This document shows positions 48,744 through 63,239 of a stretch of DNA of 64,000 bases, piece by piece. The position numbers and the translations under genes are program-made. Origin of the DNA: Ignavibacteriales bacterium. Lineage in GTDB: Bacteria > Bacteroidota > Ignavibacteria > UBA10030 > SZUA-254. The stretch spans positions 248,001 through 312,000 of the forward strand of contig JACRMQ010000006.1 of NCBI GenBank assembly GCA_016214905.1, in the 5' to 3' direction. Numbering within the stretch: the stretch's first letter is position 1; every line of letters starts with the position of its first letter. Below the pieces are notes generated by a model. It searched no databases and was not told where the DNA came from. It was given only the letters and a program-made list of their open reading frames with translations.

Positions 48744-48799
48744 AAATAAATTATTTTAATATTTGTGCGATAACATAAACTTAAAATGGTGAGGTGTTT

Positions 48800-50386
48800 G
48801 TGAAGAATTTTGTAATATTATTATTTGTAGATGTACTTCTTACGATAATCTTAACATGCTTTGTATTCTCTCAGAAGAATCAAAACATGTTCACCAATCA
48901 TTCGCTCAAGCCGGAATCTTTAATGGGTGGCAAGCATGGGAATCTTGCTTCTTTATTAGAGGAAAAAGAAAGATGCGATGATGAGGAGTCACTTGATGTA
49001 TCAGAACGACTGATCATCGAAAAAATCGGCAATGATACAATATTTATCCGTATTGCCTATCTTAGAGAAATCTGGAGTCCGGAAAAAAGTATTTGGGATT
49101 CGGCTGGCATAGGAATTTCTTTATATGATGTAAATGGAAATCTAACTGAATATTTATATCAAATCCGTGACTCAGTCAGCTGGATTAATGATTATAAATA
49201 CAATTATTCTTATGATGAATATGGAAATCAGATAGAGTACAACCATCAGATTTGGGATGGAAGTACGTGGTACACTGATTTCAAGATTACTTCGACTTAT
49301 GATTTGATTGGTAATCTAACGGAACAAATCTATCAAAATTGGGATGGCAGTATGTTAGTAAACACTTCCAAAATCTCTTCTGTTTTCGACTTGAACGGTA
49401 ATCAAACTGAATATTTATATCAGAATTGGGACGTAATCGGCTGGATAAATATTGAAAAGTTCACATACACTTACAATTCAAATAACAAACAAATCGAATG
49501 GTTTCACCATAACTGGGATAGCATAAAATGGGTTGAGAGTGAGAAGGGACAAAATATTTATGATGAAAATAATAACATTGTAGAGTCTATTGATTATCAA
49601 ATGCTTGACAGCTTATGGGTTAATCATAATAAAACAAATTATAATTATAATCAGGCAGGTAAACGAACGGAGCTTACATCACAAATTTGGGAAGATAGTA
49701 CCTGGGTGAATGATAGGAATACTCTTTATTCATACGACATCAACGGAAATCGAACAGAGGTCTTGAACCGATATTGGATTAACCAATGGATAAATAATTA
49801 TAAATACACTTATGCTTATGATTTAAATGGCAAAAGGGTAGAGTATTATTATCAGAGATGGTATGGAAATACACTGCAAAATATAAAAAAAAGCATTTAC
49901 GTTTATGACACCACTGGCATTCGGATAGAATATATTCGTCAAACGGGATTTGATAGCACTTGGGTAAATTCGAGTAAATCCAGTTACTTCTATGGCGAAA
50001 ATGGTAAGCTGACAACCTATCTATCTCAGGATTGGAACGGTATTGAATGGGTAAACTACACCAGAAATAATTATACTTGGCAAGTGCTTCTAACTGATAT
50101 GAACGAACAATCAAATATTATTTCTAGCTTCAAACTATCGTCTAATTATCCCAATCCTTTCAACCCACAAACAAAAATATCGTTCTCAATTCCAAAAGAA
50201 AGTTACGTTACTTTAAAAGTCTATGATTTACTTGGAAGAGAAGTGGCAATACTTGTCCAAGAAAAGAAACAGCAAGGTGAATATTCTGTAACTTGGAATG
50301 CCGATAATGTTCCTAGTGGTGTGTACTTCTACAAATTATTAGCAGGCGGTCTTGCAGAAACAAAAAAAATGATTTTGATGAGATAG
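48800..50386 (+). CDS. Secreted repeat protein with type IX sorting domain
   Basis: From GTG 48800 (GGTGAGG 7 bases upstream; GTG 48794 is the alternative) a signal peptide (KNFVILLFVDVLLTIILTCF) leads to about eleven repeats of ~32 residues. The unit is YDxNGNxTEYxYQxWDxSxWVNxxK, for example YDVNGNLTEYLYQ, YDEYGNQIEYNHQIW, FDLNGNQTEYLYQNW, YDINGNRTEV. It resembles YD/RHS-like repeats but lacks the usual RHS spacing. The last ~85 residues are a sorting domain (NYPNPFNPQTKISFS, YDLLGREVAILVQE, SGVYFYKLLAGG). Exported by the type IX route; ligand unknown. Confidence 0.9.
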   Translation: MKNFVILLFVDVLLTIILTCFVFSQKNQNMFTNHSLKPESLMGGKHGNLASLLEEKERCDDEESLDVSERLIIEKIGNDTIFIRIAYLREIWSPEKSIWDSAGIGISLYDVNGNLTEYLYQIRDSVSWINDYKYNYSYDEYGNQIEYNHQIWDGSTWYTDFKITSTYDLIGNLTEQIYQNWDGSMLVNTSKISSVFDLNGNQTEYLYQNWDVIGWINIEKFTYTYNSNNKQIEWFHHNWDSIKWVESEKGQNIYDENNNIVESIDYQMLDSLWVNHNKTNYNYNQAGKRTELTSQIWEDSTWVNDRNTLYSYDINGNRTEVLNRYWINQWINNYKYTYAYDLNGKRVEYYYQRWYGNTLQNIKKSIYVYDTTGIRIEYIRQTGFDSTWVNSSKSSYFYGENGKLTTYLSQDWNGIEWVNYTRNNYTWQVLLTDMNEQSNIISSFKLSSNYPNPFNPQTKISFSIPKESYVTLKVYDLLGREVAILVQEKKQQGEYSVTWNADNVPSGVYFYKLLAGGLAETKKMILMR

Positions 50387-54661: not shown

Positions 54662-55528
54662 ATGACAATGATTGAAGAATACAGACTTTCGTTGAAGATG
54701 CCCGAAGTGGAAGAGATTTTCGATCTCATTTTCTACAGACCGTTAGCTTTTCTTTTTGTTCAATCAATAAAGCGTTTCTCCATCACTCCGAACCAAATTA
54801 CTTTTATCTCTATGATGTTCGGATTTTTTGCCGCATGGCAATTTAGCCACGGCACTTCTGAAGCATTAATTATTGGCGGTGCATTATTTGTTGTATCAAA
54901 TGTATTAGATTGCGCGGATGGACAGCTTGCCAGAATACAAAAAAGCGGTTCATTGCTGGGGCGGGTTATAGACGGTGTGGCAGATTATATAGTCGGGCTT
55001 GCCGTTTTCATCAGTATAGGATTTGGGTTTGCTGCCATAAATCACGAGATGTGGATTCTTGTTATTCTCGCCGGATTTAGCACTGCTATGCATGCAATAT
55101 TCTTCGATCATTATCAAAACGAATTTATGTCAACCGTAAGATCGGAGATCAATTTTCTCGATAAGGAAATTGAACAATTCAGCAGCGAAGTTGAAAGAAT
55201 GAGGATTGAAAAAAGTAACAGTACGAAAATTATCTTTCTGATTCTTTATCTCAAATATTTAAATATACAAAAACAATTCGGTAAGAGATCGGATAATATT
55301 GGTTATGCTCCAGACCAATACAAAAAAGAAAATTCTGTTCTTATACGCTTTTGGAGTTTTATTGGTCCCACAACAAATAGAACAATTTTAATATTCTTTG
55401 CCTTTCTCGGAAGGATAGATATTTATCTCTGGGTAATTCTGATTGCAGGAAACTTATGGCTAATATTCTGTCGTGTTTACCAGTACAGTATTGATAATAA
55501 AAAGAAAACGTCTTCAGTCAATGCCTAA
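54662..55528 (+). CDS. CDP-alcohol phosphatidyltransferase, first of tandem pair
   Basis: A 288-residue membrane enzyme with the complete motif D-x2-D-G-x2-A-R-x8-G-x3-D-x3-D: Asp83, Asp86, Gly87, Ala90, Arg91, Gly100, Asp104, Asp108 (LDCADGQLARIQ ... GRVIDGVADYI). These enzymes join CDP-linked lipids or alcohols with a phosphoalcohol (for example inositol, glycerol or choline). A charged loop of ~70 residues (EIEQFSSEVERMRIEKSN) between helices is unlike the minimal family. The next gene encodes a paralogue with its start eight bases inside this stop. Confidence 0.92.
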   Translation: MTMIEEYRLSLKMPEVEEIFDLIFYRPLAFLFVQSIKRFSITPNQITFISMMFGFFAAWQFSHGTSEALIIGGALFVVSNVLDCADGQLARIQKSGSLLGRVIDGVADYIVGLAVFISIGFGFAAINHEMWILVILAGFSTAMHAIFFDHYQNEFMSTVRSEINFLDKEIEQFSSEVERMRIEKSNSTKIIFLILYLKYLNIQKQFGKRSDNIGYAPDQYKKENSVLIRFWSFIGPTTNRTILIFFAFLGRIDIYLWVILIAGNLWLIFCRVYQYSIDNKKKTSSVNA

Positions 55529-56390
55529 ACAGGATCCGATTACATTTTTCAAACAATCGTTAAAGTCAGAATCATACTTTGCAGATGAGTTGGTGAACAT
55601 TTATTTATTACGTCCGATTGCGGCGGTTATTGTTTGGATTTTTTATCCGACCAGAATCACTCCAAATCAGGTTACTCTGATGGCTATTCTTCTCGGACTG
55701 GCGAGCGCGGCTGCATACTCTTTTGGAACAGCGGCGGCAATTGCAACGGGCGGTGTTCTCATTGTAGCCAAAGATATTTTTGATGATGCTGATGGACAAC
55801 TAGCGCGGGCTAAGAAGATTTATTCCCGCCGCGGACGCTTTCTGGATTCTATCGGCGATTTTATTGTTGATGTGGCACTATTTTCTTCAATAACTTACAT
55901 CGTTTATATAGCGGAGCCAACCGGCTGGATAATGTTTCTTGGCATATTATCTTTTATCGGGATTACATTGAGAGTTTCGTATCATGTCTATTATCAGGTT
56001 TCTTTCTTTCATCTGGAAAATCAATACCCGCTCAACCGTACAGCAGAAGAAATAACCGAGGAAGATTTAGAAGGTGATCGTTTAGCCCTGAGGCTTCAGA
56101 AAATATTTATTTTAATTTATGGATGGCAGGATAAATTAATGCTCCGGATAGACCGGTGGTGTAAGGGAAGAAATTTTGATAAAAAGTTATTAGCAACCTG
56201 GTATTCAGACCGGTTGGCATTAAGAATATCCGGGCTATTAGGATTTGGTACAGAGTTTATGCTTATGTGTATTTGTTCATGGATCAATGAACTCCAGGCT
56301 TATCTGATTATTAATGTTATTGTTATGAATGGGATATGGATGGTAAGTATATTTTATCGCCGTTTTATACTTGCCAGAAATTTAGCATGA
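55521..56390 (+). CDS. CDP-alcohol phosphatidyltransferase, second of tandem pair
   Basis: A 289-residue membrane protein with the full CDP-AP motif: Asp88, Asp91, Gly92, Ala95, Arg96, Gly105, Asp109, Asp113 (DDADGQLARAKK ... GRFLDSIGDFI). Start ATG 55521 (MPKQDPITFF) overlaps the upstream gene by eight bases; an upstream ATG at 55473 is unlikely. The two enzymes share ~30% identity by eye in the core. They may work as a heterodimer or act in turn on one polar lipid such as an inositol- or choline-containing one. Substrates are not predictable. Confidence 0.92.
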   Translation: MPKQDPITFFKQSLKSESYFADELVNIYLLRPIAAVIVWIFYPTRITPNQVTLMAILLGLASAAAYSFGTAAAIATGGVLIVAKDIFDDADGQLARAKKIYSRRGRFLDSIGDFIVDVALFSSITYIVYIAEPTGWIMFLGILSFIGITLRVSYHVYYQVSFFHLENQYPLNRTAEEITEEDLEGDRLALRLQKIFILIYGWQDKLMLRIDRWCKGRNFDKKLLATWYSDRLALRISGLLGFGTEFMLMCICSWINELQAYLIINVIVMNGIWMVSIFYRRFILARNLA

Positions 56391-56416: not shown

Positions 56417-57178
56417 TCAATTACCATCGCTTATATTCTTTAGTGCTTTTATAGATTCTTCGATATGTTTTTCAGCTTGCATCTGTGAGTTAAAAGTGTG
56501 AACCACAATTCCTTGTTTATCCACGATATAAGTAACCCTGCCGGCTATTAATCCGAAAAGATTAGATGGCACACCGAATAAATTTCGCACTTTATTCCCA
56601 TCATCGCTCAATAAGATGTAATTTAAGTTGTGCTTTTTGGCGAACTGTTTATGACTTTCCACATTGTCGGAACTGATGCCGATGATTTCCGCATCTGCCA
56701 TACGGAAAATCTCATACTGATCTCTGAAACTGCAAGCTTCTTTTGTGCATCCCGGACTGTCGTCTTTGGGATAAAAGTAAATAACCATATTTTTCTTACC
56801 AATTATAGCAGAGATATCAATCATTCTCCCGTTTTGGTCGGGGAGAGTGAATGCCGGGATACGACTGCCAATATCTATCTTATTCATACTGTTGCCTGAG
56901 AATAAATTTATATCACTGTTAAAAAAGAAATAAAGAAAAAATAAAATAAAATACACGGAGAGGTAAAAACGGTAAAAATTCCGCTGTCGGATGTAAAGTG
57001 TATTATCGGGATAGATGTTTCCCAATAATCCTTTGATCTCTCTGATAAAAACCGGTTTAATGTTAATGAGCCATCGATCAGTTTGGTAAACGGTTTTACG
57101 GAATCTACTTCGGTAATAACCCAAAGGCAGACCCCAAACCATAAACAATATCAACCATATGTTTTCGAGCCATTGCAT
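56417..57178 (-). CDS. Membrane-anchored PrxQ/BCP-type peroxiredoxin
   Basis: A 253-residue fusion. Residues 1-97 carry two transmembrane helices (~6-22 and 70-87) around a loop full of Arg/Lys (RSRFRK, RQRNFYR). From Met98 a full PrxQ domain follows, with peroxidatic Cys144 and resolving Cys149 in SPGCTKEACSFRD, as in E. coli BCP, then SSDNVESHKQFAKKHNLNYI and RVTYIVDKQGIVVHTF. The positive-inside rule puts the loop in the cytoplasm and so the peroxidase in the periplasm. Met98 could also serve as a separate start for a soluble form. Third gene of a minus-strand operon. Confidence 0.88.
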   Translation of the reverse strand: MQWLENIWLILFMVWGLPLGYYRSRFRKTVYQTDRWLINIKPVFIREIKGLLGNIYPDNTLYIRQRNFYRFYLSVYFILFFLYFFFNSDINLFSGNSMNKIDIGSRIPAFTLPDQNGRMIDISAIIGKKNMVIYFYPKDDSPGCTKEACSFRDQYEIFRMADAEIIGISSDNVESHKQFAKKHNLNYILLSDDGNKVRNLFGVPSNLFGLIAGRVTYIVDKQGIVVHTFNSQMQAEKHIEESIKALKNISDGN

Positions 57179-57184
57179 AGTTTA

Positions 57185-57970
57185 TCAATTATTTTTTGGA
57201 AACCATGGAATAAAAGTACTTGTTTTCTTCACATATTCTCTGTATTGTGGCTTGGTTTCTTTGAGTGTCTTTTCTAATAATGTCACCCCCGAAACTTTAA
57301 TAATGAGAGTAGTCATAAGGAGTGAACCAAAAAAGGGCACATAGCTGCCGCCTGATATAGAAATTAAACCATATCCCAACCAGACTGCAGCGTCACCGAA
57401 ATAGTTTGGATGTCGGGTGTATCGCCATAAACCGGTGTTGAGCACTTTTCCTTTATTCATAGGATTTGATTTGAATTTTGCTAATTGGTAATCACCAATC
57501 GTTTCAAATATAATACCAATAATCCAAAAGAAGATTCCGATAATATCTAAGATATTGAGCGAGGGGTCGGTTGTATAATACTGTGCTCCGAGGAGTGGTA
57601 CGGAAATCAGCCACATGAGAATCCCTTGCAGGAGAAATGTCTGAAAAAAGCTTATCCACCAGTAACGGTGTTCACCGTAATTTTTTCGAAATTGCCGGTA
57701 ACGAAAATCTTCTCCCTTGCCGATATTTCTCAATGCGAGATATATTGACAGGCGAAATCCCCAAACTGAGACAAGCGTTGTAATGAGAATCTTACGTATT
57801 ATATATCCATCGGTAAGGAAGAAATATAACCATGCTGAGATTATAAAACCGATGCCCCAGAAAAGATCGACAATACTGACATTTTTAATAATTACACTTA
57901 TTATCCAGAGCAATGTCATCATGACAAGAATGAATAACAGTGCTTGAAAATATATCTCGAAAAATGTCAT
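57185..57970 (-). CDS. DUF1295/isoprenylcysteine methyltransferase-like membrane protein
   Basis: A 261-residue protein with about six transmembrane helices and the C-terminal motif RYTRHPNYFGDAAVWLGYGL (from residue 183) shared by the steroid-5-alpha-reductase/ICMT/NnrU superfamily, followed by a conserved Glu (TLLEKTLKETKPQYREYVKK). Such enzymes methylate or reduce hydrophobic substrates with SAM or NADPH; the group close to DUF1295 is poorly understood. AAGGAG fits the ATG at 57970 (8 bases) rather than 57976. Gaps to both neighbours are 6-12 bases, so one operon. Confidence 0.85.
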   Translation of the reverse strand: MTFFEIYFQALLFILVMMTLLWIISVIIKNVSIVDLFWGIGFIISAWLYFFLTDGYIIRKILITTLVSVWGFRLSIYLALRNIGKGEDFRYRQFRKNYGEHRYWWISFFQTFLLQGILMWLISVPLLGAQYYTTDPSLNILDIIGIFFWIIGIIFETIGDYQLAKFKSNPMNKGKVLNTGLWRYTRHPNYFGDAAVWLGYGLISISGGSYVPFFGSLLMTTLIIKVSGVTLLEKTLKETKPQYREYVKKTSTFIPWFPKNN

Positions 57971-57981
57971 TGGCATTCTCC

Positions 57982-59778
57982 TTATTCAAACATAAATGAA
58001 ACTGCCGCTGCGCCTATGCCCGCATTCATTCCAATGACCGGTGAAATGTTAACGGTATCGACCGGTGTTTTTCCTGTGAGTATTTTCATCTGATCGGTGT
58101 ACCAATTAGCGGCATCTTCGTTGCCGGCGTGTAGAATGATGTAATTCCAGATATCCTTCCCATTGCTGAGGTCGCGGATGTGTTCCATAATTTTTTTCAT
58201 ATTGGATTGCTGGTTAAAAGTTTTGCCAAATAATATTGATTTTCCATCTTCATCAAGTGAAACGATCGGATTTATATTAAGTAATCGTGCCAGTAAACCT
58301 TTTACCTGAGAAACTCGCCCCCCACGAACCATGTATTCAAGTGTTTGAACACTGACGAATATTTTAGTTTGCCTGAGCCATCGGTCAGACGCCTCCAGAA
58401 TTTCAGAATGTGTCCTGCCTGATTCTATCGCGCGGGCGATTCGAAGTGCTAGCAAGCCGAGACCGCCTGAGAGGTTTCTTGAGTCGATTACTGAAATCTG
58501 TTTATTGAATTCTTTACTCACTTTTTCTGCTGCTTTCCGGCTGCTGTTCAGTGTCCCGCTGAATTTACCAGTGAGATGTACAGCAATAATTGAATCATAG
58601 TGAGAAGCAAGCTGTGAATAGAGATTGAGAAACGCTGTGTCATTCACTTGGGATGTTGAAGGAAAAGCCTGCATCTCATCTAAAAGCGTGTAGAACTGTT
58701 TCGGTGTTATTGTGATTTTGTCGAGATAATGGTTTTCGCCGAAGTGGATATTAATCGGTAGCATATGAATTTGATGATAATCCATTAATTTTTCAGATAG
58801 GTCACAGGTAGAATCGGTTACTAGCGCGATTTTCCATTTTCTGTTGTATGCCGCCTCACTTTGACGGATCATGTCTTCAGCTTTTTGATTGGTGAGGATT
58901 CCGACTCTCCGCAACCGGGTAAATAAATCTGCGGGCGTATTCGTGTGAAGGTGAAAGTGTGTAATTTTTTGGGAACCTGCAACAACAACGGAATTGCCAA
59001 ATTCATACAGAATATTTTGTAATGAATGACTATCGATGGCTGAATGTTTTATTGTTGCTTCGGTGCAGAACCTATGGGTTACAATCTCGGGGACAATCTC
59101 CTGGACTTTCTGTATGTCGATGGTTTCTATTTTCGAATGCAGAAGTCGCTTAATATTTTTCGACTTAATAAGATCGATGATGCCTTCAATGAATAGAACG
59201 AACCCTTTTGCACCAGCATCGACAACATTTGCTTTAGCAAGAACCGCAAGCTTCGATGTTGTTTCCTCTAATGATCGCCGTATAATTTCGTGTGAACCAA
59301 TGATAAGCTGGGCAAAATCCCGGGCCTTTTCTTTGTTGTTATGAATATATTCAGCCCAGTCATTGATCACGGTGAGCATGGTCCCTTCGACAGGATTGGC
59401 AATCGCATCGAATAAATGTTTTACAGATCGTTTGATGATCTCAGCAAATTCAATAGGAGAGAGTGCGACCGAGTTTCCAGCTTCGGTGCTCATTCCGTAT
59501 AGGAACTGGGCGAAAATGATGCCGGAATTCCCACGTGCTCCTGCTAGAGCGGCATCGGCAATTTTATCTGCGGTTATCTTGAATGACCTATCGGGATGTA
59601 TTTGTTCCAGAACAGAGCGGATTGTAGAAGTAAGATTTGTTCCGGTGTCGCCGTCTCTAACAGGGAATACATTAATACGGTTTAACTCAATCTGATTTTC
59701 GAACACCCTTTGCGCGCCTGCTCTAAAAACGTAATAAAGCATCCGTCCATCAAGTTTTGATATAGAGCTGTCTTTCAT
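57982..59778 (-). CDS. FakA-FakB fusion: DhaL kinase plus DegV fatty-acid-binding protein
   Basis: A 598-residue protein. Residues 1-205 form a DhaL/DAK2 kinase domain (RINVFPVRDGDTGTNLTST with the DGDTGTN metal/ATP motif at 42-48, ARGNSGIIFAQFL, EGTMLTVINDWAEY, VDAGAKGFVLFIEG). Residues ~230-305 match the middle domain of FakA (FCTEATIKHSA, HFHLHTNTPADLF). Residues 316-598 are a full DegV/FakB domain (LVTDSTCDLSEKLM, AFPSTSQVND, HLTGKFSGTLNSSR). FakA phosphorylates fatty acids held by FakB for phospholipid synthesis. The C-terminal FakB-binding domain of FakA is absent; FakB itself is attached instead. Confidence 0.9.
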   Translation of the reverse strand: MKDSSISKLDGRMLYYVFRAGAQRVFENQIELNRINVFPVRDGDTGTNLTSTIRSVLEQIHPDRSFKITADKIADAALAGARGNSGIIFAQFLYGMSTEAGNSVALSPIEFAEIIKRSVKHLFDAIANPVEGTMLTVINDWAEYIHNNKEKARDFAQLIIGSHEIIRRSLEETTSKLAVLAKANVVDAGAKGFVLFIEGIIDLIKSKNIKRLLHSKIETIDIQKVQEIVPEIVTHRFCTEATIKHSAIDSHSLQNILYEFGNSVVVAGSQKITHFHLHTNTPADLFTRLRRVGILTNQKAEDMIRQSEAAYNRKWKIALVTDSTCDLSEKLMDYHQIHMLPINIHFGENHYLDKITITPKQFYTLLDEMQAFPSTSQVNDTAFLNLYSQLASHYDSIIAVHLTGKFSGTLNSSRKAAEKVSKEFNKQISVIDSRNLSGGLGLLALRIARAIESGRTHSEILEASDRWLRQTKIFVSVQTLEYMVRGGRVSQVKGLLARLLNINPIVSLDEDGKSILFGKTFNQQSNMKKIMEHIRDLSNGKDIWNYIILHAGNEDAANWYTDQMKILTGKTPVDTVNISPVIGMNAGIGAAAVSFMFE

Positions 59779-59862: not shown

Positions 59863-60387
59863 TTATCTTTTTCTGCTGTGAAATCCTAAAATAATACCCA
59901 GAACTACCGACCATATTGCAGCGAGACCGATCTGATATGGTTTCGGCAAAATAAACGTAATAGTGTGCGCGGGGATCCAAAACCAAAGCAAAGATAGCAT
60001 GCCTTTATGAATATTGTCCCAATTCTTTTCGCGCGCGATTATGTTATCTAAAACTCTGTGCATTATCACGAGGAATGGACCGAACTGTAAATTCATAGAA
60101 ACTGAAACGGCAAAAGATCTGCCGAACAAATCAAGCGACGGCAGGAGGTCGTGTTGTATTAAACTATCAACAAATCCTTGAAATCCCGTGAAAGCGTATT
60201 TGATGCACACAGCGAGCAAAGCCCACTCAAGCATTTTCAATAAAAGTGTCAAAGGGGAAAACGGGAAGGAAATCTTTTTCTGAATCAACCACTTGGATAC
60301 GATATCACCAAACGTCCCGAGTATTGCAAACTGAACCATTGCGGTTGTTAGCGGATATTCCGAGACTAAAGAGATATACCAAGTCAT
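59863..60387 (-). CDS. Mpv17-like membrane protein
   Basis: A 174-residue protein with about four hydrophobic helices. The first, FAILGTFGDIVSKWLIQKKI, matches the Mpv17/PMP22 entry motif (gD..Q), and the end (WFWIPAHTITFILPKPYQIG, LAAIWSVVLGIILGF) matches its C-terminal signature. Eukaryotic Mpv17 forms a channel in mitochondria; the bacterial role is unknown. It is separated from the FakA-FakB fusion gene by 84 bases in the same direction. Confidence 0.7.
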   Translation of the reverse strand: MTWYISLVSEYPLTTAMVQFAILGTFGDIVSKWLIQKKISFPFSPLTLLLKMLEWALLAVCIKYAFTGFQGFVDSLIQHDLLPSLDLFGRSFAVSVSMNLQFGPFLVIMHRVLDNIIAREKNWDNIHKGMLSLLWFWIPAHTITFILPKPYQIGLAAIWSVVLGIILGFHSRKR

Positions 60388-62171: not shown

Positions 62172-63239
62172 TTACTCTACCGCTTTAAATTCTGAGATAA
62201 GAGATTGGATTAATTCTTTTACGGAAGTGATACGTGTAGCTTTGAAAGCGTTCGCGCCGGCGAATGCGTATCCTTTTTCAAAATTTCCTTTTAGAGCATT
62301 TATCAGCGCGGTGATAATGCAATATGGACTGCTGGAAATTTCACATGTCTTAATGCACTGGAATGGGCATTGAAGCGGTTGCTTTTTCCCTTGTTTAACT
62401 TTCTCTAAAAAATTACTCATGATCGCGCGTCCCGGCATGCCAACCGGACTTTTAATAATCTCAATATCTTCGCTTTTAGCATCGATGTAAGATTGCTTGA
62501 ATGCGTCCGAAGCATCGCATTCATCTGTGGTTACGAAGCGTGTACCCATTTGCACACCCGAAGCGCCTAACTGCATAATATCATAAATATCTTTACCGGT
62601 GTAAATACCGCCGGCTGCGATAACGGGTATCGGCTGATTGTACATTTCTTCTATTTGCCTAACTTCGTGAACAACTTCCGGTATCAATTTTTCGAGTGAG
62701 TAATCTTTATCTTCGATCTGTTCAGGTTTGAAACCAAGGTGCCCGCCGGCTTTTGGACCTTCAACTACGATAGCATCTGGAAGGTAGTCGTAATTCTTTT
62801 TCCACTTTTCACAAATGATTTTGGCGGCACGTGCTGATGAGACAATTGGCGCTAATTTTGTGACGCTGTCTTTTTTTAGAAAACCCGGAAGGTCTAAAGG
62901 AAGACCCGCTCCGGCAAAAATTATATCGGTTTTTTCGGCAATAGCTGTCTTAACCATATCGGCAAAATTGGACATCGCCACCATGATATTAACTCCGATT
63001 ACACCGCCGGTTTTTTCACGGGCTTTCCGTAACTCTTCGCGCAAACCAAGGATGCTTGCCTCTAAAAAATCTTTTGATGATTCTTTGTATAAAAGTCCGA
63101 GACCTGCGCTGGAAATCACGCCGATTCCCCCTTCGTTAGCTACAGCTGCTGCTAAGCCCGATAGTGATATTCCGACACCCATTCCACCCTGTATTACTGG
63201 AACCGGTATATGTAAATTGCCAATTTGTAATGATTTCAT
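62172..63239 (-). CDS. Nitronate monooxygenase-like FMN enzyme
   Basis: A 355-residue TIM-barrel flavoprotein of COG2070: VIQGGMGVGISLSGLAAAVA, NEGGIGVISSAGLG, VEGPKAGGHLGF, IPVIAAGGIYTGKDIYDIMQ, LGASGVQMGTRFVTTDEC. It could be a nitronate monooxygenase, an enoyl-ACP reductase II (FabK) homologue or another 2-nitropropane dioxygenase-family enzyme; no FabK-specific feature was found. The C-terminal part has an extra Cys set (CPFQCIKTCEISSSPYC), which could bind a metal or an iron-sulphur cluster. It forms an operon with the CDF gene. Confidence 0.9.
   Translation of the reverse strand: MKSLQIGNLHIPVPVIQGGMGVGISLSGLAAAVANEGGIGVISSAGLGLLYKESSKDFLEASILGLREELRKAREKTGGVIGVNIMVAMSNFADMVKTAIAEKTDIIFAGAGLPLDLPGFLKKDSVTKLAPIVSSARAAKIICEKWKKNYDYLPDAIVVEGPKAGGHLGFKPEQIEDKDYSLEKLIPEVVHEVRQIEEMYNQPIPVIAAGGIYTGKDIYDIMQLGASGVQMGTRFVTTDECDASDAFKQSYIDAKSEDIEIIKSPVGMPGRAIMSNFLEKVKQGKKQPLQCPFQCIKTCEISSSPYCIITALINALKGNFEKGYAFAGANAFKATRITSVKELIQSLISEFKAVE

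Follow-up and report, generated by a model that had tools for sequence, protein, structure and literature searches.

Can a fatty acid kinase and its acyl carrier, FakA and FakB, work as a single chain? A gene in the 64,000-nucleotide stretch of an Ignavibacteriales genome analysed here (the window) raises this question, as an earlier note had read it as a FakA in which FakB replaces the C-terminal domain. The gene lies on the minus strand, its ATG at 59778 and its stop codon ending at 57982.

57982..59778, minus strand: FakA(N+M)-FakB fusion CDS, 598 aa, from the open reading frame, family profiles, and FakA and FakB structure matches in the respective halves
59176..59664, minus strand: Dak2 kinase domain, residues 39-201, with N36 just ahead of it (Pfam, E 9e-32)
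58855..59076, minus strand: FakA middle (dimerisation/catalytic) domain, FakA_M, residues 235-308 (Pfam, 2.5e-14)
57991..58833, minus strand: FakB/DegV domain, residues 316-596 (Pfam, E 9e-75)

The FakB domain is complete and a separate FakA_C domain is absent. In agreement with the earlier note, the Pfam DegV match follows FakA_M, starts at residue 316 and covers 278 of the 280 profile positions. FakA_C (PF13684) was not found as a domain of its own: it gives only a weak score that overlies the DegV domain, and since the same weak score recurs on a stand-alone FakB we do not count it as a separate FakA_C. By sequence comparison the kinase half matches the solved FakA structures 7w7h, 8vip and 7rm7, and the C-terminal half matches the FakB/DegV structures 2dt8, 4x9x and 3fys. 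The reading frame is uninterrupted and other phyla have full-length homologues, so the fusion is neither a product of chance nor an assembly joint. Structure prediction from the window and Lederbergia (L003) sequences gave an unusable model (mean pLDDT 37, pTM 0.23).

Next, we mapped the residues with known roles onto the fusion, using for the kinase half the roles and saFakA numbering of PMC9136124, and for the carrier half the roles in saFakB1 numbering of PMC8892158 and PMC9136124.

N36, D42, D44, T45, N84, D187, Dak2 domain: saFakA N32, D38, D40, T41, N82, D185
C238, H276, H278, FakA middle domain: saFakA C240, H282, H284
T375, S407, R488, FakB/DegV domain: saFakB1 T62, S95, R173, all kept

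All nine tested catalytic or metal residues of FakA are intact in 25 of 25 fusions (the window and 24 homologues); the fusion has both the Mg/ATP residues of a Dak2 domain and the Cys/His residues of the middle domain. The earlier note had made its reading depend on the metal Asp residues and the FakB Ser, and these are all present. The likeness to FakA (YloV/VfrB; S. aureus, S. suis 7w7h) thus extends over Dak2, FakA_M and the nine residues. However, the FakA_C docking domain of FakA proper is missing, with a full FakB in its place, and the scores are below the NCBIfam cut-offs both for YloV (242 vs 396) and for FakA_VfrB (155 vs 975). An active enzyme without FakA_C is plausible, since S. 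aureus FakA_NL, which lacks FakA_C, is active (PMC9136124). The dihydroxyacetone kinase fusions of DhaK and DhaL share a Dak2/DhaL-type kinase domain with the protein studied here; in contrast to them it has no DhaK domain, and DhaL models match it weakly.

The carrier half shows both conservation and change. As in saFakB1 (5woo), saFakB2 (4x9x) and DegV (3fys), there is a complete DegV domain with Thr62, Ser95 and Arg173; Ser95 and the catalytic Arg173 are kept in all 25 fusions, while position 62 is Thr or Ser. The difference from a stand-alone FakB/DegV protein is that the carrier is tethered covalently and that two residues are replaced: the docking residue Arg205 by Phe521, and His270, which in FakB1 belongs to the hydrogen-bond network around the carboxylate, by Asn585. 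In the 14-member clade that contains the window copy, Arg205 is never found (nine Phe, four Leu, one Lys), and the His270 position is Asn in eight, Ser in five and His in one, so that 13 of 14 have Asn or Ser. In contrast, Arg205 and His270 are each present in nine of nine bona fide stand-alone FakBs. Among the 11 fusions outside this clade, the Arg205 position holds Arg (5), Ile (4) or Val (2), and the His270 position His (8) or Tyr (3); as five of the 11 keep Arg205, fusion does not in itself entail losing it.

In FakB, Arg205 serves in docking to FakA and to the membrane and is called completely conserved (PMC8892158). It is also a membrane-contact residue of FakB1 (PMC8892158), and therefore loading of the fusion from the membrane may differ. 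The loss of this contact and the change of His270 to Asn both count against an active kinase. Further, the spacing between the HxH motif and the first FakB strand is nearly constant, 42-46 aa in 25 of 25 fusions, while in stand-alone FakA 69-104 aa lie between HxH and a FakA_C motif. From the loss of Arg205 in the clade together with this near-constant linker, we infer that the carrier is fixed to its own kinase, a claim of the earlier note that is thereby favoured. As that note also proposed, such a fixed carrier might confine the enzyme to a single fatty-acid specificity and permit handover inside a dimer. In stand-alone DegV proteins from the window's phylum (L019, L020, L025-L028), Arg173 and the TSQ motif have disappeared, and these proteins may not be carriers of a fatty acid kinase.

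How many Fak proteins does the organism have? A search of its 3.3-Mb, 99.6%-complete assembly gave one match for Dak2 and one for DegV, both in the fusion gene. A duplicate FakA elsewhere in the genome is ruled out, the fusion being the only Dak2 match; the intact separate FakA that the earlier note had named as a possible objection is absent, and so is a separate FakB. Users of acyl-phosphate are present, one PlsX and two PlsY. These counts bear on the idea that the fused FakB stands in for FakA_C, in structure or in regulation, without presenting the substrate itself, while a separate FakB docks on the fusion and delivers the fatty acid. In favour of this, FakA_C is a structural relative of FakB that also binds FakB (PMC9136124), Lederbergia has three separate FakBs besides its fusion, and His270 is altered in the window's clade. 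However, the window's genome holds no other DegV protein, and hence no docking partner, and a scaffold would not need the Ser95, Arg173 and Thr/Ser62 that all 25 fusions keep. We regard such a stand-in as quite improbable.

The fusion is rare and scattered. In the window's phylum it is found in 12 of 148 genomes, the window's included; it is absent from the genomes of the same order and class among those listed in this survey. Within its own family only one of 15 genomes has it, and one genome of the same genus has a lone FakB in place of the fusion. In this phylum, a separate FakA was not found in any genome that carries the fusion. In Bacillota, the phylum of Lederbergia, eight of 299 genomes have the full-length fusion; stand-alone FakA makes up most of the best matches among those listed in that survey, and at least five of the eight have one in addition to the fusion. 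Further copies are found in Listeria, in Enterococcus raffinosus (on a megaplasmid) and in Acetoanaerobium.

To place these copies we used unrooted trees. In the tree of the kinase and middle domains one branch splits 25 fusions (from Bacillota and the window's phylum) from 25 stand-alone FakAs (support 100/100), and in the tree of the FakB part the fusions split off likewise from stand-alone FakBs, with weaker support (SH-aLRT 87). Judged by these trees, the fusions are one old lineage, scattered but kept over large distances. The window copy lies inside the 14-member clade with Bacillota copies (100/99), apart from the rest of its own phylum; the simplest reading of this grouping is that it was probably acquired horizontally. 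As the trees are unrooted, they give no direction to the order of events, be it FakB replacing FakA_C or the reverse. A profile comparison, asking whether FakA_C is a decayed FakB derived from a fusion, showed weak similarity of FakA_C to all DegV sets.

Descent is also relevant to the view that this is an ordinary gene fusion, functionally no different from FakA plus FakB. Known domains throughout and intact catalytic residues fit that view, but a single old lineage retained over such distances does not, and neither do the systematic replacements of the docking Arg and of the His in the carboxylate network or the conserved operon partner described below. It is in our opinion a rather unlikely explanation.

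Among the viral contigs scanned there was one partial relative and no fusion. One record of Enterococcus phage IME_EF3 (L039, PQ520375.1), marked UNVERIFIED, contains DUF2177 and the fusion, and unannotated Listeria 'phage' records give full-length fusion matches too. Carriage by phages is not claimed here: L039, the one such record examined, reads like bacterial host DNA.

Next, we studied the surroundings of the gene.

57185..57976, minus strand: DUF1295 membrane protein of the steroid 5-alpha-reductase-like superfamily, the conserved partner, 5 bp downstream of the fusion
56417..57178, minus strand: N-terminally extended peroxiredoxin (AhpC/TSA), 6 bp downstream of the DUF1295 gene
59863..60387, minus strand: membrane protein of 174 aa, unmatched in Pfam and NCBIfam, on the strand of the fusion and 84 bp upstream of it

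A Shine-Dalgarno-like AAGGAG of the DUF1295 gene lies at the stop codon of the fusion. The peroxiredoxin is probably on the same transcript as these two genes, while it is uncertain whether the upstream membrane protein belongs to the operon. DUF1295 is directly downstream of the fusion in 13 of the 13 clade copies with sequence there (the window, Lederbergia, two Listeria, E. raffinosus, Acetoanaerobium and seven sampled Bacillota). Nine clade members have DUF2177 upstream or downstream of the fusion; it was not found in the window's genome. Two Bacillota loci also have peroxiredoxin genes a short way downstream, although the open frames read there begin within the domain. A photolyase gene is just upstream in Listeria, and the neighbours in single clade members include a 2-thiouracil-desulfurase/DUF1722 gene or a tocopherol-cyclase-like one. 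Outside the clade, three related genomes that belong to a single family (f20) have plsY immediately following the fusion, a pointer to acyl-phosphate. In Chlamydomonas, genes for DUF1365, DUF2177 and DUF1295 are among the singlet-oxygen genes that require SAK1 (PMC4067076). By association only, such neighbours suggest a possible tie between the clade operon and membrane or oxidative stress.

Some further observations concern gene order. Two loci without a detected DUF2177 have a small DUF1475-like membrane protein directly after DUF1295 (L075:3177-3509 and L078:7403-7732), which perhaps replaces DUF2177 there. Near the fusion, on the plus strand, two overlapping tandem genes (54662-55528 and 55473-56390) are CDP-alcohol phosphatidyltransferase-like. 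Elsewhere in the window there are an FMN-dependent nitronate monooxygenase/FabK-like protein (62172-63239, minus strand) and a 530-aa YD/RHS-like repeat protein with a C-terminal secretion-sorting-type domain containing SNYPNPFNPQT (48794-50386, plus strand).

Among the nearest known systems is the lmo0590 type in Listeria, with the same architecture and DUF1295 directly downstream, in an operon DUF2177-fusion-DUF1295; the difference is the upstream DUF2177, which the window's genome lacks. We equate lmo0590 with the Listeria gene of locus L035 by common description and gene order. The product of lmo0590, described as a 'hypothetical DAK2/DegV domain-containing protein', is uncharacterised except for one insertion mutant from a screen, whose replication in Caco-2 cells was 9.6-fold lower and may reflect a polar effect (PMC3091722), and lmo0591 is among the sigma-B-regulated predicted membrane proteins (PMC2248587). 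Deletion studies of fakB in E. faecalis list one FakA and four FakB genes (PMC12594616, PMC12288450); as neither text has a fused protein among these, they do not appear to be a test of the fusion. Open-access papers yielded no work on the function of the fusion. In databases it is named only 'DegV family protein'. The architecture is thus already in databases, while the family, the residue changes and the operon appear undescribed.

The neighbours also bear on the substrate. Instead of ordinary fatty acids, the fusion might phosphorylate some other carboxylate, namely an oxidised, hydroxylated or isoprenoid acid that the DUF1295 enzyme either supplies or uses. This would fit the change of His270 to Asn or Ser in 13 of 14 clade members versus His in nine of nine stand-alone FakBs, the invariable DUF1295 partner, and the peroxiredoxin, photolyase, DUF2177 and tocopherol-cyclase-like neighbours of various members. 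It would also fit that most sampled Bacillota use stand-alone FakA without the fusion and that at least five of eight fusion carriers have both. On the other hand, the fusion is the sole Fak protein in the window's genome, which suits general recycling, and it adjoins plsY in family f20. We hold this alternative to be doubtful.

The reading that we prefer is that the fusion is probably a working single-chain fatty acid kinase, which forms acyl-phosphate and has a built-in carrier. The FakB domain would hold a free fatty acid, whose carboxylate would be phosphorylated by the Dak2 domain with Mg-ATP, aided by Cys238, His276, His278 and Arg488, and the acyl-phosphate would be passed on to PlsY or PlsX. 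The short tether after the dimerisation domain would make FakA_C and the contact of FakB Arg205 dispensable for the carrier. In the window's clade the fusion would act within a small membrane-lipid operon, with the DUF1295 enzyme and, here, the peroxiredoxin; given this setting, the enzyme probably acts on acyl chains, perhaps modified or oxidised ones, that the cell recovers from its own membrane, as in a putative membrane repair.

A more far-reaching idea, which we put forward only tentatively, is that the members of the clade are single-protein kinases devoted to fatty acids that have been modified or oxidised. The loss of Arg205 docking and the altered carboxylate site would be their adaptations, and they would act with DUF1295, a reductase-like enzyme of the membrane, in a so far undescribed pathway for damage and salvage of membrane lipids that moves between phyla.

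We know of no solved structure of an active FakA-FakB complex, and the fusion is a ready-made 1:1 complex for structure work. How FakB hands over to FakA is disputed, by direct presentation to the kinase domain or by transfer through FakA_C (PMC11617999). A natural protein without FakA_C but with its own FakB is a direct test of this dispute: if the fusion is active, FakA_C is not needed as an acceptor. Further, through the conserved DUF1295 partner, a family of membrane proteins without a known function becomes open to a first biochemical approach.
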